A DNA stretch of 20,028 bases, from positions 1 to 20,028 of IMG/VR virus record IMGVR_UViG_3300044635_002264; one strand, 5' to 3'. A program made the position numbers and the translations under genes. Below the pieces are notes generated by a model that saw only the letters and a program-made list of their open reading frames with translations, was not told the origin of the DNA and did not search any database. Shown here one piece after another: positions 599-10,589 of this stretch (position 1 is the stretch's first letter; each line of letters opens with the position of its first letter). This DNA comes from a virus.

Positions 599-2095
599 AT
601 GCTAGGTTATCGTAATGCGTGCTACAATCCACGCGAACAAACTGTAGAGGTTTATACTTGGTCAGAAGAAGGTGCTCGTATAAGTTATACGACTCGATTT
701 GCACCATACTTCTTTGTGGAAGATCCCAAGGGAGATGAGACCAGTATATTCGATACTCGTCTACGCAAGCGAGCATTCAACACAGGATTTGACAAGACCA
801 AATATCTCAAAGAAACTGGTCTCAAGCGATTGTATGAAAACTTTGGTGTGGTGCAGCATTGTCTGATGGATTTGTACTGGCAACACAACGAAGATGAAAG
901 CTTCTCCAAGTTTCCGCTCAAGATATACTACATTGATATTGAAGCTGTTGCAGAAACGTTTCCAAATCCTGCAACAGCAGAGCATCCCATCAATGTGATC
1001 ACCATTTTTGATAGCATGAGTGATTGTTTCTATAGCTGGGGATTGAAGCCGCACAAACCCAAAGACGCAGCAGTAAAGTATGTGTATTGCAAATCAGAAG
1101 TAGACTTGCTGACCAACTTCATTGAGTTTTTCAAGAACGATCCATGTGACATCTTGAGTGGTTGGAACTCAGCCAACTTTGACATTCCATACATCATCAA
1201 TCGCATCAAGAACATCTTGGGTGATGCAGCTGTCAATGAGTTGTCGCCGATGAAGAGAGTATATTTCAGAACGTTCATGGGTGCATTTGGTAAAGAGCAA
1301 GTAAATTATCACATTGATGGTATATCATGTGTTGATTATCTTGACATTTACAAACGCTTTTCATTCACCAACCGAGAAAGTTACAAGTTGGATTTCATTG
1401 GTGAGCTAGAACTAGATGAGCGCAAGGTTGACTATGGTGACAGAGATCTGTTGACGTTGATGAAAGAAGACTGGGATGTGTTTGTTGATTACAACATTCA
1501 AGACGTTCGGTTGCTGGTCAAGCTAGAAAAGAAATTGCAATACATCAATCTGTTGAGAATGTTGGCGTATGTTGGTCTCACAACGTTCGAAGGTGCCATG
1601 GGAACGCTGAGTGTGATCACAGGTGGTGCAGCAATTCAAGCTCGCAAACGGGGTCAACGTGTGTCAACATTTGTGCGTGATGAAGATGATGGAAGCAAAA
1701 ACCCTGGAGCATATGTAGCAGAACCACTTCCGGGGTTTCAAGAGAGCATTGTGAGCTTTGATGCTAACTCACTATATCCAAACGTGATGATCAGTCTCAA
1801 CATGTCACCAGAAACCAAGGTGGGTAAGATCATTGAATCTGATGATGAGTCAATAACAGTGAGACATGTGAATGGTCAAATCTTCAAACTTACCAAGGAG
1901 AAGTTTGCTAAGTTTGTCAAGAAAGAAGAGATTGCCATATCGCGTGCCAAGGTGTTGTTTAGTCAGAAAACCAAAGGCATCATACCTGCGATGGTTGATC
2001 ATTACTATCAAAAACGAAAAGATGTGCAGGTAGAAATGGAACAATATGAGCGTGAGCTCGAAGCAGTTGAAAATCAGTTAAAACAAATACAATGA
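599..2095 (+). CDS. 43A: Family B DNA polymerase, N-terminal part (gp43A: exonuclease plus motif A)
   Basis: This 498-residue product is the front half of a T4 gp43-type replicative polymerase. The 3'-5' exonuclease motifs are all present: Exo I YIDIEA (D113, E115), Exo II GWNSANFD (N193, D195) and Exo III YNIQD (Y298, D302). Polymerase motif A follows as SFDANSLYP (D388), which carries one of the two catalytic aspartates. The protein ends in a charged coiled-coil-like stretch (residues about 470-498), which corresponds to the fingers helix before motif B. It stops at TGA 2093-2095, so motifs B and C are on the next gene. Frame 2100 continues the same helix one frame over. T4-like Aeromonas phages are known with gp43 split into A and B subunits near this position, so a two-subunit polymerase is plausible. 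A +1 frameshift at the UGA or a sequencing error are the alternatives. Confidence 0.9.
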   Translation: MLGYRNACYNPREQTVEVYTWSEEGARISYTTRFAPYFFVEDPKGDETSIFDTRLRKRAFNTGFDKTKYLKETGLKRLYENFGVVQHCLMDLYWQHNEDESFSKFPLKIYYIDIEAVAETFPNPATAEHPINVITIFDSMSDCFYSWGLKPHKPKDAAVKYVYCKSEVDLLTNFIEFFKNDPCDILSGWNSANFDIPYIINRIKNILGDAAVNELSPMKRVYFRTFMGAFGKEQVNYHIDGISCVDYLDIYKRFSFTNRESYKLDFIGELELDERKVDYGDRDLLTLMKEDWDVFVDYNIQDVRLLVKLEKKLQYINLLRMLAYVGLTTFEGAMGTLSVITGGAAIQARKRGQRVSTFVRDEDDGSKNPGAYVAEPLPGFQESIVSFDANSLYPNVMISLNMSPETKVGKIIESDDESITVRHVNGQIFKLTKEKFAKFVKKEEIAISRAKVLFSQKTKGIIPAMVDHYYQKRKDVQVEMEQYERELEAVENQLKQIQ

Positions 2096-2099
2096 ACAT

Positions 2100-3463
2100 A
2101 TGACAGCAAAACAATTACAACAGCGCAAGCTAGAGCTTGAGACCAAGATCAAGCAGCTAGACGCTAAACAGTTGAGTCTCAAGATTTTAATAAATTCGAC
2201 ATACGGATTACGTTGAGTCCCATCAAGTTAGCGATAATTGATGAAAATCTCTTTAATTGCTGGAAACCTAAAGCCGCAAGCCATGGCAATCAGCAGCGAA
2301 GCTTCGACAGAAGAACGTTCAACGACTATCACGCAAGTGAGTAGACACAAGTGTGTCGAAACGGGAGACACCTCTAGTAGGTGATGATATAGTCTCATCT
2401 GCATGGAAACATGCAGCAGCTCGCAAGAGCGCAAACGACAGTAACGAGTTGTTTGGAAGATAATGATTTTGGCAACAAGCAAGCACCAATTGGTGATGAT
2501 GATATTGCATCGTCCATCACTTTAACTGGTCAGGCAGTAGTGAAGCAGGCTCGTGAGATAGCCAAGAAATACATTAGCGAGCAATCGGGCATAACAGATG
2601 AGCGTGTGCTCAATACTGTGAATGTTGCAGGTGATACAGATTCGTGTTATGTTTCTTTGAAGTTGATACCGTTCAAGTTTGCAGAAAATGGTAAACTAAC
2701 CAAAGATGCATATCAACATGCTGATCAGTTGAATCAGCGACTCAACAAGGAGATCATTACGTATGCTGCAGCAGCTTTCAATTCAAAAGATTGTAGGTTT
2801 GTGTTCAAGCGTGAAGCATTGGCAGATACCGGGTTGTTTCTAGAAAAGAAGCGCTATGTGATTCACTTGCTCGATAACAAGGGTTTTGCATGTGACAAAT
2901 GGAAGTATACTGGTGTTGACGTGGTACGTACCACCATGCCCAAAGCCGTCAAACCATATGTCAAGCAGGTGATCGAGACCATGTTGACCACAAGATCAAC
3001 TGCCGCAACCAATCAAGTGCTCAATCAAGCATATGATGTGTTCAATGCGCTACCCATCGAAGACATATCACGAACATCTGGCATCAAGGGGTATGAAAAA
3101 TATGCCAACATGTGCAACGACTTCAAGATTGCCAAGGGTGTACCCAATCATGTCAAAGCAGCGTACTACCACAATCTGTTGATTGATAAGTTGGGGTTGG
3201 ATCGCAAATATGAAAAGATAGCTAGTGGTGAGAAGATCAAATACTTCTACGTGCAACAACCCAACAAGTATGGAATTGATTGTATTGGGTTCAAATACAA
3301 ATTTCCTGCTGAGATGGCAGCACTGTTTGTGCCAGACAGGGAGAAGCTGTTTGAGAAGATTGTGTATGCAGCCATCGAGCGATTCTATCTAGCTGTCAGC
3401 TGGACTCCCAGAAAGCCATCACAACAAGTACAATATGAACTGCTTGATTTGTTCGGTGAATAG
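2100..3463 (+). CDS. 43B: Family B DNA polymerase, C-terminal part (gp43B: motifs B and C), interrupted by a group I intron
   Basis: Predicted exons are 2100-2208 and 2466-3463, giving 368 residues when spliced. Exon 1 starts four bases after the 43A stop, encodes a coiled-coil-like run and ends in motif B (LKILINSTYG). Without splicing it stops at TGA 2214-2216. Exon 2 resumes with FGNKQAPIGDDDIA, then motif C (VAGDTDSCYV, catalytic Asp), KKRYVI of the thumb boundary, and a C-terminal LLDLFGE resembling the gp45 clamp-binding tail of T4-type polymerases. Joining U2208 to A2466 creates a UAU (Tyr) codon, giving NSTYG-Y-FGNK, the expected motif-B continuation. 43A plus 43B total about 866 residues, close to T4 gp43 (898). 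An ATG at 2411 lies inside the intron P9 helix and is not a credible start for the C-terminal part. The frame upstream of 2100 is open back to 2082, so fusion to 43A by a +1 shift is possible. Confidence 0.85.
2209..2465 (+). ncRNA. Group I self-splicing intron (IA-like), no ORF, in DNA polymerase motif B
   Basis: Helices found by hand: P1, exon GGAU 2205-2208 with GUCC 2217-2220 and the expected U-G wobble at the 5' splice site; P2, CATCAA 2221-2226 with TTGATG 2238-2243; P3, TCTCTT 2248-2253 with GGGAGA 2363-2368; P4, GCTG 2259-2262 with CAGC 2291-2294; P7, GACTAT 2324-2329 with ATAGTC 2389-2394; P7.1, CAC-GCAA-GTG 2330-2339; P7.2, GACAC 2344-2348 with GTGTC 2353-2357; P8, CACCT 2369-2373 with AGGTG 2379-2383; P9, CTGCATG-GAAA-CATGCAG 2399-2416; P9.1, GCTC-GCAA-GAGC 2419-2430. 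The GTTCAACGACTA and GATATAGTC blocks are the classic R and S core sequences. The pair P7.1/P7.2 points to subgroup IA, as in T4 td. The final base is G2465, as expected. It is too short for a homing endonuclease gene. Confidence 0.9.
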
Positions 3464-3471
3464 CATAATAT
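3444..3471 (+). promoter_or_regulatory. Sigma70-like promoter, leaderless layout
   Basis: TTGATT (3444-3449), 16 bases, TAATAT (3466-3471), then 6 bases to the ATG at 3478. It overlaps the end of the polymerase gene. The predicted transcript start coincides with the start codon. Confidence 0.55.
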
Positions 3472-3477
3472 AATGAT

Positions 3478-3840
3478 ATGTCCAAGAAGATTACTTTCAT
3501 CGATCAAATCGGCAGAACCATCCTAGCAGAGGAAGTCGCAACAACCGACACTCAACTAGTGGTGAAAAACCCCGCGATGATCAACGTCAACCAATTGCAG
3601 AATGGTCAGTTGCAAGTTCAATTGTATCCTCTATTCTTTGCAGAATTTTTAGCTGAAGCTTCCAGAGTTGCAGGTACAACTTGGAAGTTTAATCTTGCAC
3701 AGATTGCTACCACTGATGATGCAGTGGTAGATCAGCGACTTGTTGATCAGTATGATCGAGTATTTGGAGCAAAAGCTCCTGCAGCTTCAGCACCAGCTGA
3801 AACCCCCGTCATCAAGTTGTTTGACGACGAAGGTAAGTAG
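3478..3840 (+). CDS. Small conserved-looking phage protein, possible Sm-like fold
   Basis: The 120-residue product starts with a beta-rich domain (about residues 4-60) with a pattern like IDQIGRTILAEEV, LVVKNPAMINV and GQLQVQLYPLFF. I read this as a possible Sm/Lsm-type barrel like small proteins found near polymerase and recA genes in marine T4-like phages; I cannot prove the fold. A flexible Ala/Pro linker (about 98-108) leads to a C-terminal VIKLFDDEGK. That tail resembles the LLDLFGE end of the polymerase, so both might touch the sliding clamp; this is inference. It has its own leaderless-type promoter and is followed by a strong terminator at 3869. Function otherwise unknown. Confidence 0.7.
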   Translation: MSKKITFIDQIGRTILAEEVATTDTQLVVKNPAMINVNQLQNGQLQVQLYPLFFAEFLAEASRVAGTTWKFNLAQIATTDDAVVDQRLVDQYDRVFGAKAPAASAPAETPVIKLFDDEGK

Positions 3841-3868
3841 TCCGTAGTAGTGTTATAGAAGAAGCATT

Positions 3869-3904
3869 AGACCTTGTGATCTTTATGGTCACAAGGTCTT
3901 TTGT
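3869..3904 (+). terminator. Rho-independent terminator
   Basis: An 11-bp perfect stem (AGACCTTGTGA 3869-3879 with TCACAAGGTCT 3889-3899), a 9-base loop and a T-rich tail. It lies 28 bases after the Sm-like gene and just before the uvsX promoter, so it insulates the polymerase unit from uvsX. Confidence 0.9.
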
Positions 3905-3905
3905 G

Positions 3906-3933
3906 TTGAATATACTTATGCATAGTATAACAT
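3906..3933 (+). promoter_or_regulatory. Sigma70-like promoter of uvsX, leaderless layout
   Basis: TTGAAT (3906-3911), 16 bases, TAACAT (3928-3933), then 6 bases to the ATG at 3940. It starts directly after the terminator tail. No Shine-Dalgarno sequence lies between -10 and ATG. Confidence 0.6.
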
Positions 3934-3939
3934 GATCAC

Positions 3940-5049
3940 ATGGATAAAGACGTTTTAAAAGCACTAGAGACTCTCGATGATGGAAATCCGTTTGCGACAT
4001 TCTTGAACCAATCAACACTATCAGTTGTTGACAGTTGGATTGATACTGGTAGTTACATGTTGAATGCCATCATTAGTGGTAAAATTCGTAACGGTGGCAT
4101 CCCAGATGGTCGTGTAAGCATGCTTTATGGGGAGTCGATGACTTTTAAGACTTCCATTGTTTTGCGCATTCTTGCTAATGCACAGAAAAATGGTCGCATA
4201 CCAGTTATTTTTGATACTGAAAATGCAGTTGATCCTGAATCTGCTGCTCGAGCAGGACTCGACAACAGCAAGGTAAAATACATACCAACATTCAACATCG
4301 AACAATGTCGCAACAATATTCACAAGTTCTTGACCAACGTCAAAGAGCAAGGTCTAGAAGGTAAGTTCATCATTGCTGTAGATTCGCTGGGTAATCTAAT
4401 GAGTCAGATGGAACAGACTCGTATTGAAAAAGACTCCACTAGCATGGACATGGGAACTAGAGCTCGAGCAATCAAATCATTGCTTGTAACTGCAACCCAA
4501 TTAGCGGCAATTACCAAAACACCCATCATCTTCACCAATCACTTGTACGATAACCCTGGTGAGTTGCACCCAACGTTGGTAAAGAATATGCCTGGAGGAA
4601 AAGCCTGTATCTACTTACCAAGCATCAGTTTACAGCTAATGCGCAAACCCATCAGAGAAGATGATAAATCCATCAAAGGCAATGACTCAACAACTGCAAC
4701 GCTGCAGCGTAATTATGTTGGTGTGTTGATTAGAGCTCTGACTGCAAAGAACCGTTTCATCAAACAATACCTTGAAGGTGAAATCTTTGTATCGTTTGAC
4801 AAAGGTGTCGACAAATATCATGGTCTTCTTGATCTGGCAGTTGGGCTTGGTGTCATCGAACAATCTGGAGCAACTTACGCTTTTCAAGGACAAAAGCTTG
4901 GGTATGCCAAGAGCTTTCAGAATGATGTAGAATTCTGGGAGAACAAGATCATTCCGTTGATCGAAGACAAAATTCGTGTAGAATGGGCGTATAGCTCCGA
5001 GCAAGACACGCCAGAAACAGATGATTCTTCAGTTGAGGATGCCGCTTAA
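3940..5049 (+). CDS. uvsX: UvsX-type RecA recombinase
   Basis: The 369-residue product (T4 UvsX: 391) is a RecA-family ATPase that forms filaments on single-stranded DNA and drives strand exchange for recombination-dependent replication and repair. The Walker A loop is GESMTFKTS (about residues 64-72), the phage-type variant in which FK replaces the SGK of bacterial RecA. Walker B is KFIIAVDSLGN (about 142-152). DMGTRARAIKSLL, PIIFTNHLYDNPGE and MPGGKACIYLPS match the UvsX central region and L2 loop area. The C-terminus is acidic (TPETDDSSVEDAA), as in proteins of this family that contact UvsY or gp32. The start follows a terminator and a clear promoter. Confident. Confidence 0.95.
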   Translation: MDKDVLKALETLDDGNPFATFLNQSTLSVVDSWIDTGSYMLNAIISGKIRNGGIPDGRVSMLYGESMTFKTSIVLRILANAQKNGRIPVIFDTENAVDPESAARAGLDNSKVKYIPTFNIEQCRNNIHKFLTNVKEQGLEGKFIIAVDSLGNLMSQMEQTRIEKDSTSMDMGTRARAIKSLLVTATQLAAITKTPIIFTNHLYDNPGELHPTLVKNMPGGKACIYLPSISLQLMRKPIREDDKSIKGNDSTTATLQRNYVGVLIRALTAKNRFIKQYLEGEIFVSFDKGVDKYHGLLDLAVGLGVIEQSGATYAFQGQKLGYAKSFQNDVEFWENKIIPLIEDKIRVEWAYSSEQDTPETDDSSVEDAA

Positions 5050-5068: not shown

Positions 5069-5284
5069 ATGAATTCCATTGGAACCATCACACAACGATT
5101 GCTTGATGAATTTGGCAGCAAACCCATGACCATTCGCACAGAATCCAACGTGCTCATCATCCGAGCTGGTAGCACTGAAACACGATTTGTCAATTGGCAA
5201 GATGTTGCTCTAGAAGAAATCGTACGTTCGGTACATGGCTGTTTGCATGAATCCACTGATTCTCGAGTTTTGTTGCGCGGGTAG
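5069..5284 (+). CDS. Small hypothetical protein (71 aa)
   Basis: I do not recognise a family. The product from ATG 5069 begins MNSIGTITQRLLDEFG and is a compact alpha/beta-looking chain without membrane segments, ending VLLRG. The frame is also open upstream to 5021, inside uvsX, but the ATG at 5069 has a promoter-like sequence in front of it and gives a cleaner N-terminus. It follows uvsX on the same strand and converges on the tail-collar gene, with 32 bases between the stops. No terminator is visible in that gap. Confidence 0.55.
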   Translation: MNSIGTITQRLLDEFGSKPMTIRTESNVLIIRAGSTETRFVNWQDVALEEIVRSVHGCLHESTDSRVLLRG

Positions 5285-5316
5285 CACAACAAAAATATTC
5301 ATCTGTAAGTTATAAT

Positions 5317-5841
5317 TTAGAATTTAATACAAGGTAGCAATGCAACGTTGCGAGGACGCGTTTCATTTCCTCCCCCAGCATTGGTACTAGTAGTAGTTGA
5401 CCCTGTATTAAACCCACCTCCAGTGAACGCTGGAGTAGATCCTGTTGCAGTACCCTGAACAATAGCAACAGTATGCGTGTGATTCTCTATCAAATCTCCT
5501 TGTGCCGATCCAAATACACGCCCCGAATCAATGCCCCTCGTACGATCCCATCCTCTAATGAACTCACCACGTAGATCTGGCAGATTAAATGTTGTTGTAC
5601 CGTTACCAGCTCCATAAATTGTTCCAATCGCTAGCCACAGTGCACTGTAGTTACTACGAGGTACAGCTACACCATTGCATTCTAACCAACCAGCAGGAGC
5701 AGCTGACATTGCGAAAAACATGGTTGCTCCTGCAGGAATACCCACGCTCCAGATAGTACCGCCAGTTCCATCTGCGGCAAGCATGGTACCTGAAACTGCA
5801 TCAGTTGAATTAATAAGATTAGAAGACACTTTTGTTAACAT
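5317..5841 (-). CDS. Tail fibre protein with phage tail collar domain
   Basis: The 174-residue product has a short N-terminal segment (about 1-30) and then a classic tail-collar / microcystin-dependent-protein domain. Its marks are MFFAMSAAPAGWLECNG, SNYSALWLAIGTIYG, FNLPDLRGEFIRGWD and the C-terminal ETRPRNVALLPCIKF. This domain forms distal parts of tail fibres or short-tail-fibre collars in T4-like and other phages. The Gly/Thr/Ser-rich stretch before the C-terminus (about 128-157) is probably the variable receptor-binding loop. It is a short protein, so it is either a fibre tip subunit or a modular adhesin. It is transcribed alone, against its neighbours, from a perfect TATAAATA late promoter 6 bases before its ATG. 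Confidence 0.88.
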   Translation of the reverse strand: MLTKVSSNLINSTDAVSGTMLAADGTGGTIWSVGIPAGATMFFAMSAAPAGWLECNGVAVPRSNYSALWLAIGTIYGAGNGTTTFNLPDLRGEFIRGWDRTRGIDSGRVFGSAQGDLIENHTHTVAIVQGTATGSTPAFTGGGFNTGSTTTSTNAGGGNETRPRNVALLPCIKF

Positions 5842-5862
5842 ATAAATTATTTATATGTTAAC
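5834..5862. repeat. Perfect 29-base palindrome over late promoter and start codon
   Basis: Arms GTTAACATATAAAT and its exact reverse complement flank a single central base (5848). The palindrome covers the late promoter, its start-proximal region and the start codon of the collar gene. Confidence 0.9.
5848..5855 (-). promoter_or_regulatory. T4-like late promoter (perfect TATAAATA)
   Basis: On the minus strand TATAAATA is followed by 6 bases and the ATG at 5841. It matches the T4 gp55-dependent late consensus exactly and lies inside a 29-base palindrome. Confidence 0.85.
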
Positions 5863-5945
5863 TTACCTTGATATGTATTTTTTTGATATTTTTTTACAGC
5901 ACATTACAGGGTAACATCAGCATAGATTTTTACAGATACATCCTT

Positions 5946-5951
5946 TATACT
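5946..5951 (+). promoter_or_regulatory. -10 box before queC-like gene
   Basis: TATACT, 6 bases before the ATG at 5958. No good -35 is visible at 16-18 bases upstream, where the sequence is T-rich. The spacing to the ATG matches the other leaderless-type promoters. Confidence 0.45.
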
Positions 5952-5957
5952 CAGGGT

Positions 5958-6692
5958 ATGAATCAAGTAGTAGTACCCATCAGTGGTGGCATGGACTCAA
6001 CAGTTCTTTTGCACTGGGCATGCACCATGTACACATCAGTTCACGCCATCAGCTTTGATTATGCTCAGCGACATCACCGTGAACTAGCATGTGCTACTGC
6101 TCAGGTTGAATTGTGCAAGATCAAGTACAACATACCCATCACACACAGAACCATCGATGTGAGCTTCATTCGCAGCATTGCACCCACCAGTTCATTGACC
6201 AATGATGACATTGCAACTCCTGATGTGCGTGTAATTCGAGGTGAAGCTCAACCCAAGAGCTACGTACCCAATCGCAACATGATGTTTCTCAGCATCGCAA
6301 CTGCATATGCAGAAGCTCAAGGTGCATCATCTGTATGGCATGGAGCAGCTCAAGCAGATAGCCTGGCAGGGTACTTTGATGGAGATGAAACATTCGTCAC
6401 AGCAATGAATGCTGTGAATGCTCTCAATCGTGAACATCGTATAATGATTGAAGCTCCATTGCTCAACATGAGCAAAGCTGATATTGTTCGCAAGGGAGTA
6501 GAACTTGGAGTAGACTTCACAAAGACATATACGTGTTATGCAGGAGGTGAGTTGGCTGATGCAAATTCAGCAAGTAGTAGCTTGAGGATAGCTGGCTTTT
6601 TAGAAGCAGGTTACGTTGATCCTATTAAATACATACAACAAGATCGATTGGATCAAGTGTATGCACAACGAGGATGCCGACCCATTAAGTGA
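5958..6692 (+). CDS. queC: QueC-like 7-cyano-7-deazaguanine synthase (PP-loop)
   Basis: The 244-residue product fits the QueC family, which makes preQ0 from 7-carboxy-7-deazaguanine with ATP and ammonia, for tRNA queuosine or for deazaguanine DNA modification in phages. The PP-loop is PISGGMDSTVLL (about residues 7-18). The family segments VPNRNMMFLSIA, DGDETFVTAMN and EAPLLNMSKADIV are present. The usual C-terminal zinc site (C-x8-C-x2-C-x2-C) is degraded: C193 is kept, but the other three ligand positions read D201, S204 and S207. Activity may therefore be altered, or the protein may act on another substrate. The frame is open upstream to 5868, but ATG 5958 gives the correct family N-terminus and has a -10 box six bases ahead. 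The tail overlaps the next gene by 32 bases. Confidence 0.82.
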   Translation: MNQVVVPISGGMDSTVLLHWACTMYTSVHAISFDYAQRHHRELACATAQVELCKIKYNIPITHRTIDVSFIRSIAPTSSLTNDDIATPDVRVIRGEAQPKSYVPNRNMMFLSIATAYAEAQGASSVWHGAAQADSLAGYFDGDETFVTAMNAVNALNREHRIMIEAPLLNMSKADIVRKGVELGVDFTKTYTCYAGGELADANSASSSLRIAGFLEAGYVDPIKYIQQDRLDQVYAQRGCRPIK

Positions 6693-8545: not shown

Positions 8546-9228
8546 TCAACAGAATAATTTCAGCAACCAGAGCAAGCACTGAAGAAGCCATCGCAAAGCT
8601 ACCACTGGTGCGTAGCGTTGAAGAGCGATTGTTTGGAGGAGAGTATGAGCTTGTGACCAACAACACTCGCGGCTTACCAGCAGTATACAATGAAGCACTT
8701 GAAGTATGGAAGCGTCAAGATGCAAGATGGTTGGTGTTTGTGCACGACGATGTGTACATTGATGATACACATGTGTTCACCAAGCTTGATGAAGCACATC
8801 AACAACACGGGTTCAACATTGTTGGTCTTGCAGGATGTACGGATCCAGTGATCAAATCTCACAACTTGTGGCATGTGATGGCACCAAGAGACAAGCTGTT
8901 TGGGTATGCAGCACACCCTGCAGGTCGACCTGGACAGATTCAAGTATCATCATTTGGACCATCACCAGCAAGAGTAGCATTGATTGATGGGTTGTTCATC
9001 GCGGTTCATGTTCCAACTGTCACGAAGACCAATTGGAAGTTCAACGAGAACTACACCTTCCATCATTACGATCTTGCAAGCTGCATTGACGCCAACCGAC
9101 AAAGATTGAAGATTGGTGTTGCTCCCATCAACGTGATTCATTCATCACCAGGATTGATGTCGGTGAATGACGCAATCTGGAGCAAGAGCAATGATCAGTT
9201 CTTGAAAGAGTACGCATCAGGTGCATAA
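8542..9228 (+). CDS. GT-A fold glycosyltransferase (GT2-like)
   Basis: The 228-residue product looks like a GT-A transferase. It has TRGLPAVYNEALEVWKRQDARWLVFVHDDVYI, where NEAL and VHDDV (about 66-71) match the acceptor-side helix and metal-binding acidic motif of GT2-type enzymes. LIDGLFIAVHV and ENYTFHHYDLASCIDA (about 171-186) resemble the conserved second half of small virus and bacterial transferases. It would move a sugar from a nucleotide donor; the acceptor is not known. It overlaps the amidotransferase by four bases (ATGA), so the two are translationally coupled and may belong to one pathway, perhaps making or transferring an amino sugar. That link is inference. Confidence 0.78.
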   Translation: MINRIISATRASTEEAIAKLPLVRSVEERLFGGEYELVTNNTRGLPAVYNEALEVWKRQDARWLVFVHDDVYIDDTHVFTKLDEAHQQHGFNIVGLAGCTDPVIKSHNLWHVMAPRDKLFGYAAHPAGRPGQIQVSSFGPSPARVALIDGLFIAVHVPTVTKTNWKFNENYTFHHYDLASCIDANRQRLKIGVAPINVIHSSPGLMSVNDAIWSKSNDQFLKEYASGA

Positions 9229-9229
9229 T
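9202..9229 (+). promoter_or_regulatory. Sigma70-like promoter of gp41 helicase
   Basis: TTGAAA (9202-9207), 16 bases, CATAAT (9224-9229), then 6 bases to ATG 9236. It lies inside the end of the glycosyltransferase gene. Confidence 0.5.
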
Positions 9230-9235
9230 AACATC

Positions 9236-10561
9236 ATGGATAAAATCGACTTGGATCATTTTGAGAAGATCTTTGCTCTCAAAATGTTGACTGATGAAGA
9301 GTTCTTTTCATCAGTTGTTGATGTTGCCGATCCAGATTATTTCAAAGATGATGCCATCAAGGACATCTTCATCATTCTCAAAGACTACTTCATCAAGCGG
9401 GACACCATACCCAACATCACCGAAGTAAAGAACTATCTCACAACACCTGAACTCAAAGAGTCGTTCCGGAAGATCTTGACCATGATACAGAACATGGACA
9501 AGACGTTCAATCGAGATGAGTTGATGAAGAATGCTGAACGCTATCTCAAAGAGCGAGCAGTGTATAAGACCATGCTTGATGTTGCTGATAAACTACAACA
9601 AGGCAAAGCAGATACATCATGGGTACTAGATCAATTTGAGCGTACATGCAACATCAACTTGACCACCAACTTTGGATTGGATTTGTACAACAACATCGAC
9701 CAATTGGTAGATGACATCAATAAAGATGAGCCCATGATTCCATCCAGGTGGAAGTGGTTGGATGATCAACTTGGTGGAGGTTTTTTGAAAAACGGTAGAG
9801 CGTTGTATGTATTTGCTGGGCAGACCAATGTTGGTAAGAGTATCGTGCTAGGCAACATTGCAGCCAACATCGCTCAGCAAGGCAAGACAGTTTTGTTGGT
9901 ATCACTTGAAATGTCAGAGATGATGTATGCCAAGAGGCTGAGCTCATATCTCACCAAGATACCCATCAAGCACTTGAGATCAGAAGTGATCACCATGAAG
10001 TCTGCTCTACAAGACATACATCAGAGCAATCCAAGAGGACGCATCATTGTAAAAGAATTTCCGCCAAGTACCATCACTGCCAATCAATTGTCTGCATTTG
10101 TGAAGACTTTACGCAACAAAGGTATCTTTCCTGATGCTATTGTGTTGGATTATCTCAATCTGCTGCACACCACGCAAGGCAACAACTCCTACGAGCGCAT
10201 CAAGCATATTTGTGAACAAGTGCGCGCAATGACCTACAATTTTAATTGTCCAGTAATTTCAGCTACTCAAATCAATAGAGGTCAGTTTGATGTAGCTGAA
10301 CCAAGCTTAACAGGTATTTCAGAGTCCATTGGACTGGCAGCAACAGCAGACTTCATTTGTAGTGTGTATCAGATGGAAGATGATGCTGAGAACGGTATTC
10401 TTCGCATGGGCATGATGAAGAATAGGTTTGGTGCAAATTTTGGTACCTCAGCATTCTCCATCGACTATACTACGTTGTCCATTGTGGAAGATGATGAATT
10501 GAATTCATTGACAGATGCATCAGAAAGTGCAAGAGACACACTTGCGGAGTTTGCAAGCTAG
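9236..10561 (+). CDS. 41: Replicative DNA helicase, DnaB/gp41 family
   Basis: The 441-residue product (T4 gp41: 475) is a hexameric 5'-3' replicative helicase. An N-terminal helical domain (about 1-155) is followed by the RecA-like core: RWKWLDDQLGGGF at the entry, Walker A FAGQTNVGKS (about 193-202), LLVSLEMSEMMYAKRL with the catalytic Glu (about 220-235), Walker B AIVLDYLNLL (about 301-310) and ISATQINR (motif H4). The C-terminus is acidic and Ser-rich. It begins the replication cluster that also holds gp32 and gp45. A GTG at 9221 is in frame, but ATG 9236 has a promoter 6 bases before it and a better N-terminus. The next gene follows directly. Confidence 0.95.
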   Translation: MDKIDLDHFEKIFALKMLTDEEFFSSVVDVADPDYFKDDAIKDIFIILKDYFIKRDTIPNITEVKNYLTTPELKESFRKILTMIQNMDKTFNRDELMKNAERYLKERAVYKTMLDVADKLQQGKADTSWVLDQFERTCNINLTTNFGLDLYNNIDQLVDDINKDEPMIPSRWKWLDDQLGGGFLKNGRALYVFAGQTNVGKSIVLGNIAANIAQQGKTVLLVSLEMSEMMYAKRLSSYLTKIPIKHLRSEVITMKSALQDIHQSNPRGRIIVKEFPPSTITANQLSAFVKTLRNKGIFPDAIVLDYLNLLHTTQGNNSYERIKHICEQVRAMTYNFNCPVISATQINRGQFDVAEPSLTGISESIGLAATADFICSVYQMEDDAENGILRMGMMKNRFGANFGTSAFSIDYTTLSIVEDDELNSLTDASESARDTLAEFAS

Positions 10562-10589
10562 TTGAACTTTGATGCAACGCATGTATATA
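10562..10589 (+). promoter_or_regulatory. Sigma70-like promoter before DHH-like gene
   Basis: TTGAAC (10562-10567), 16 bases, TATATA (10584-10589), then 5 bases to a GTG at 10595 in the reading frame of the next gene. The -35 box directly follows the gp41 stop codon. Confidence 0.45.

Follow-up and report, generated by a model that had tools for sequence, protein, structure and literature searches.

The split polymerase gene and its intron

The window (the whole stretch of 20,028 nt analyzed here) carries a T4-type family-B DNA polymerase gene in two cistrons on the plus strand. The first cistron, 43A (599 to 2095), encodes the N-terminal part of the split enzyme, a predicted chain of 498 amino acids comprising the exonuclease, palm motif A, and the first fingers helix (Pfam DNA_pol_B_exo1 and DNA_pol_B; PHROG 262 and 2062). 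This reading frame ends with a TGA at 2093 to 2095, and the polymerase sequence resumes in another (+1) frame at an ATG at 2100, which is also present in the related contigs L001, L117, L119, L120, and L122. The second cistron, 43B, consists of two exons and is predicted to yield a chain of near 368 amino acids. Exon 1 (2100 to 2208; 36 full codons and 1 nt) encodes the second fingers helix and, of motif B, the first half (...LKILINSTYG, with the T that opens the following codon), and exon 2 (2466 to 3463, with the stop codon at 3461 to 3463) encodes the remaining part of motif B, motif C (GDTDS), and the thumb (Pfam DNA_pol_B; PHROG 262 and 1918). Two PHROG families of split length match the halves, namely 2062 (502 positions) for 43A and 1918 (382 positions) for 43B.

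The alignment puts the break at the fingers tip, 113 nt upstream of the intron and close to where the gene is split in Aeromonas phages 25 and UP87. A T4-type DNA polymerase is of the split type (43A/43B) when its two cistrons part at the fingers, and this is the arrangement found here. By analogy, gp43A and gp43B would be expected to assemble into one polymerase; in phage 25, the two proteins are reported to purify together along with polymerase activity (review, PMC2988022). Polymerases of such build are easily annotated as broken genes. The preliminary description of this DNA had overlooked the split and the fact that it accompanies the intron. The lack of a Shine-Dalgarno sequence before 43B is uninformative because the other gene starts inspected in this phage lack it as well: the regions upstream of about 20 gene starts in the window (1 to 20028) have no Shine-Dalgarno-like motif, which hints at an unusual mode of initiation or an unusual host.

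Three other features of the window were recorded. An intergenic hairpin at 3860 to 3905 (agaccttgtgatc...ggtcacaaggtct), followed by T-rich sequence, is a possible terminator, and this stretch is 98 to 99% identical to L001, more than its surroundings. A region with a minus-strand tail-collar ORF (5276 to 5983) is replaced in L001 by other, plus-strand ORFs (9174 to 10573 of that contig), with flanks that are 84 to 86% identical. A QueC-like gene for 7-deazaguanine synthesis (5868 to 6692) is located in the replication region and possibly relates to DNA modification.

The segment between the two 43B exons (2209 to 2465, plus strand; 257 nt, last base G2465) is a group I intron without an ORF. 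RF00028 is the sole Rfam match of the whole window in cmscan (2179 to 2416, plus strand; 97.3 bits, E 2.1e-24, full model; gathering cut-off 50 bits), so the covariance-model search that the preliminary description had proposed upholds its identification of the element. It contains no endonuclease ORF. The intron is inserted in the codon following NSTYG, behind its first nucleotide (phase 1), in motif B (Kx3NSxYG) of the polymerase, as had been claimed. The 2208-2466 join preserves the frame, with LKILINSTYGYFGNKQAPIGDDDIASS in the product and TACGGAT/ATTTTGGC in the predicted ligated exon DNA; the spliced reading is NSTYG-Y-FGNKQAPIGDDDIASS. The predicted U2208-A2466 join, likewise put forward before, is exact, since intronless relatives read the same around it (NSCYGYFGNKQAPIGDDDIASS at the same place in L002), whereas the unspliced 43B frame meets a stop two codons inside the intron (...NSTYGLR*).

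All helices listed in the preliminary description (P1, P2, P3, P4, P7, P7.1, P7.2, P8, P9, P9.1) are present, together with P5, P6, and P9.2. P1, which the Rfam alignment misplaces, was assigned directly from the sequence (2205 to 2220): exon GGAU (2205 to 2208) pairs with the internal guide GUCC (2217 to 2220), placing the U2208.G2217 pair at the 5' splice site. It is followed by the P2 hairpin with a GCGA tetraloop (2221 to 2243). P3 (2248 to 2251 with 2365 to 2368), P4 (2257 to 2262 with 2291 to 2296, P5 inside), and P7 (GACUA 2324 to 2328 with UAGUC 2390 to 2394) come from the RF00028 match and a comparison of six introns, those of the window, L001, L117, L119, L120, and L122. Inside P7 lie P7.1 (2329 to 2340), P7.2 (2344 to 2357), the 3' strand of P3, and P8 (2369 to 2383), and the 3' domain consists of P9 (2399 to 2416), P9.1 (2419 to 2430), and P9.2 (2432 to 2455). 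P7.1 and P7.2 between P7 and P3 define the group IA2 subgroup, in which the window intron is placed by having both.

The window intron is 97.3% identical to that of L001. Across the six introns, pairs were counted on hand-anchored helices, as a MAFFT alignment shifts the P1 loop by one base. P1 is invariant in all six; P7.2, P8, P9, and P9.1 show double-sided (compensatory) changes. The P2 and P9.2 hairpins re-form from differing sequence (P2 in L117, L119, L120, and L122), except that the P9.2 stem is weakened in L001. The fold is supported by these compensatory changes and by the maintenance of the two hairpins. Pairing with the 3' exon (P10) is weak. The RF00028 match takes in the P3-P8 catalytic core, and the element also has the U.G pair at the 5' splice site, the terminal G, and the in-frame exon join of a group I intron; guanosine-dependent self-splicing is predicted.

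Split, intron, and intein in related phages

The related contig L001, with 86% DNA identity to the window over 5.3 kb, shares both split and intron. A search based on conserved sequence downstream of motif B, which kept loci with a motif-B intron within reach, also retrieved L117, L119, L120, and L122, which share the GGAU site and the same kind of split. The introns of these four (RF00028, 104 to 115 bits) and of L001 are homologous at the GGAU site (103 to 115 bits for the five). Split and intron thus occur together in six uncultured-phage contigs, the window and five others, some of them near-copies. In all six, the stop/ATG break lies 113 to 336 nt upstream of the intron, and the gap sequences differ, the distance from stop to ATG being 4 nt in the window, 15 to 16 nt in L117 and L119, and ~236 nt in L122. 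Since the split is kept in six contigs with different gaps, we reject a sequencing error as its cause. A frame break in the polymerase of L092, with ambiguous bases close by, is likely due to sequencing.

L002, L031 to L035, and most other loci have an unsplit, intronless polymerase. L123 and L124, on a deeper branch, are split and have no intron, so the split can exist alone. In L123 (1 to 4669), the halves are separated by two unrelated ORFs, one nucleotidyltransferase-like (minus strand) and one PP-loop ATPase-like, and an apparent intein is found within the exonuclease part of 43A. When RF00028 was run over the contigs of 50 relatives, matches above the cut-off were obtained only in L001, in L005, and at one distant place in the L089 contig. 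Exact intron-core patterns retrieved only already known contigs among viral contigs and none among prokaryote genomes.

A further element is found at motif C. L117, L119, L120, and L122 contain both the intron and a motif-C intein, motif C is intact in the window and L001 alongside their intron and split, and L036 has the intein and neither split nor intron. In L036 (186 to 4361), the motif-C intein is itself split, its N half ending at 2345 and its C half starting from 3405; between them lies a VSR-type endonuclease ORF of 357 aa, a homolog of the Aes508 one (34%, E 2e-48). L122 has the same split intein with a shortened endonuclease ORF.

The L005 intron (L005, 2213 to 3486), closely related to the window intron and also ORF-less, is located close to the beginning of a glycosyltransferase-like gene that directly precedes the polymerase. 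It follows a freestanding DUF7487 endonuclease-like ORF by ~150 nt, and L006 lacks both.

Probable joint spread of the split and the intron

In the 43A protein tree, the six split and intron-bearing sequences fall in at least two places: the window and L001 group with L002 (93/95), and the other four lie among L031 to L036 (100/100). A single clade of the six, a group named after the pattern had been seen, is rejected in this tree (AU p 1.5e-46). A local mosaic is evident as well. Identity between L119 and L033, an unsplit, intronless allele, is 91 to 98% in 43A and falls to 63.5% over the final 75 nt of exon 1, while for two unsplit alleles of similar divergence, L031 and L034, identity in the same 75 nt before the intron site is 85%. 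Over its last 45 nt, L119 exon 1 is most similar to the other alleles with an intron in the L119 group. Likewise, the end of exon 1 in the window is 73 to 78% identical to intron-bearing L117, L119, and L122 and 69% to L002, its nearest intronless polymerase relative, whereas 43A shows the reverse (67 to 71% and 77%, respectively). Between the window and L001, identity at codon third positions reaches 0.89 close to the intron, against 0.70 elsewhere (Fisher p 0.001); a rise, though a weak one, is seen in just one of the control pairs, L031/L033 (p 0.08).

Because of the polyphyly on the 43A tree and the L119/L033 mosaic, the split, exon 1, and the intron behave as one mobile cassette, and the simplest reading of these alignments is that the three moved as one block by recombination. 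The patchy distribution and co-converted flanks are those of a trans-mobilized intron of the phage 25 type. The 257-nt intron, with no endonuclease ORF, does not belong to the mobile introns that encode their own enzyme. In the 20-kb window fragment, Pfam scans and, as the main test, searches with the endonuclease families PF24308, PF01541, and PF13392 found no endonuclease, and the minus-strand frame in the 236-nt gap of L122 gave nothing convincing in Pfam and nothing in phage records as an endonuclease remnant. Collaborative or trans homing has been described (review, PMC2988022), and mobilization of this intron in trans by a separate, putative endonuclease is plausible. The endonuclease-like ORF beside the closely related L005 intron and the motif-C split inteins of L036 and L122, with the full VSR-type ORF of L036, are two clues in this direction.

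Given the fold, the exact junction, the split, its co-occurrence with the intron in six contigs, the polyphyly, and the mosaic, we consider it very probable that a self-splicing, ORF-less intron resides in 43B of a naturally split polymerase and that the split, exon 1, and the intron have spread together. An exogenous G would attack the RNA after U2208, and ligation of the exons at A2466 would allow synthesis of gp43B, with the second fingers helix, motifs B and C, and the thumb; gp43A would be translated from its own cistron, and the two chains would then form one polymerase. The fingers-tip split, exon 1, and the intron would pass jointly between related phages by recombination, most simply by homing and co-conversion begun by an endonuclease supplied in trans; homing as the driver is what we infer from the pattern of spread. 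A stronger version, in which the fingers-tip split lies inside the co-conversion tract of the ORF-less intron, so that a single homing step would convert the unsplit polymerase of another phage into an enzyme of two chains, as would have occurred independently in two phage lineages far apart, is regarded as tentative, at somewhat short of an even chance. If it is true, gene fission itself would be contagious between phages.

Two of the alternatives concern the history of the cassette. The intron and the split may have been dragged along as co-converted flank by the VSR-like endonuclease in the motif-C split intein, 176 nt downstream, with no dedicated intron endonuclease. This agrees with the co-occurrence of intron and intein in L117, L119, L120, and L122 and with the homology of the L036 enzyme to that of Aes508, but the window and L001 have the intron and the split with motif C intact, and L036 has the intein with neither, and we regard this route as unlikely. 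We give still less credence to an ancestral intron and split that were lost together several times, without recent mobility. Losses can explain the 43A tree, and the deeper-branching L123 and L124 are also split, but the intron and the split would have to disappear together, with motif B restored exactly, several times over. Moreover, simple loss is disfavored because it does not generate the L119/L033 mosaic, in which two nearly identical alleles differ in the tract around the intron and that tract resembles other intron-bearing alleles.

The remaining alternatives concern the expression of the gene. With the intron in 43B only and the unspliced frame closing so soon, splicing could, in line with the control of polymerase output proposed in the preliminary description, act as a switch that times this output by limiting gp43B while gp43A, with its exonuclease, is made regardless; most relatives thrive without the intron, and we judge such a role quite improbable. 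A bypass of the stop at 2093 to 2095 by +1 frameshifting or ribosome hopping, giving one polypeptide, would fit the +1 frame of 43B, the gap of just 4 nt before its ATG, and the imperfect repeat of 13 nt that flanks this gap. Such a programmed event over the repeat is disfavored by the L122 gap, which contains many stops, and by the L117 and L119 gaps of other sequence, and the in-frame 43B ATG is kept in all; the probability of a bypass is accordingly very small. A gene interrupted and in two frames might also suggest that the polymerase gene has decayed and its intron is dead, or that the assembly is at fault, which is scarcely credible since independent contigs (86% identity) share the structure, a conserved protein, and compensatory intron changes. 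Joint spread of the split and a self-splicing intron is therefore our preferred reading.

Comparison with known phages

The preliminary description knew of no intron described in this gene at this codon, but gene 43 introns are reported in phages 25 and JSE (review, PMC2993671); that of phage 25 lies in motif B, 3 nt downstream of the present site, and that of JSE at motif A. Intron 25.g43B of Aeromonas phage 25 is ORF-less and predicted to use a freestanding endonuclease (review, PMC2993671). In phages 25, UP87, Aes508, G2285, and PSD2002, the motif-B introns, with splice points deduced here from P1 and the reading frame of the records, interrupt the second codon past YG, each after its first base; the window intron interrupts the first codon past YG in the same phase and is thus one codon (3 nt) upstream. 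A tree of intron cores, based on short alignments and with several weak branches, rejects a joint clade of the window group and the phage 25 group (AU p 6e-4). A shared origin with the introns of the phage 25 lineage is therefore rejected, and neither site nor descent is shared with Intron 25.g43B, which suggests that almost the same target was colonized independently by two intron lineages.

The records of the Aeromonas phages hold different sets of elements: phage 25 has the split, a Seg-type gene, and the intron; UP87 has the split and the intron and no endonuclease gene; Aes508 has the split, a Seg-type gene, the intron, and a motif-C split intein; and Aes516 has the split, the intron, and the split intein without the Seg gene. 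Like those of phages 25 and UP87, the window polymerase is split at the fingers tip, with a 43A that is also 498 aa, and as in the phage 25 group an ORF-less group I intron interrupts motif B of 43B in phase 1. The motif-C split intein of Aes508 and Aes516 is found in relatives of the window. Unlike phage 25, the window has no endonuclease gene between 43A and 43B, and its polymerase is only ~28% identical to those of cultured phages.

Other systems share single features with the window. The Escherichia coli T4-type phages G2285 and PSD2002 have a short group I intron in motif B, but their gene is not split at the fingers tip, the site is 3 nt downstream, and the intron is of the other lineage. 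JSE and G2494 also have a group I intron in a T4-type gene 43, but at motif A (DLTSL/YPS), and the G2494 intron has an ORF. In 44RR (43A/43B with a short intercistronic gap), the split lacks an endonuclease gene, as in the window, but there is no intron. Collaborative or trans homing systems likewise involve an intron without its own endonuclease; the window differs from them in that no candidate enzyme was identified in it. In the UP87 (3391 to 4918) and PSD2002 (1815 to 4756) records, the polymerase is deposited as separate CDSs and the group I intron between them is unannotated.

The arrangement is thus already known from Aeromonas phages, and what is new here is the other intron lineage and a site one codon away. 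The Aeromonas-phage set of fingers-tip split, motif-B intron, and motif-C split intein recurs in a distant lineage of uncultured phages, where the intron differs in ancestry and sits 3 nt away. This recurrence allows one to test if the elements promote one another's spread and if gene splitting goes along with introns. Most interesting is the evidence of a gene split traveling with an intron.
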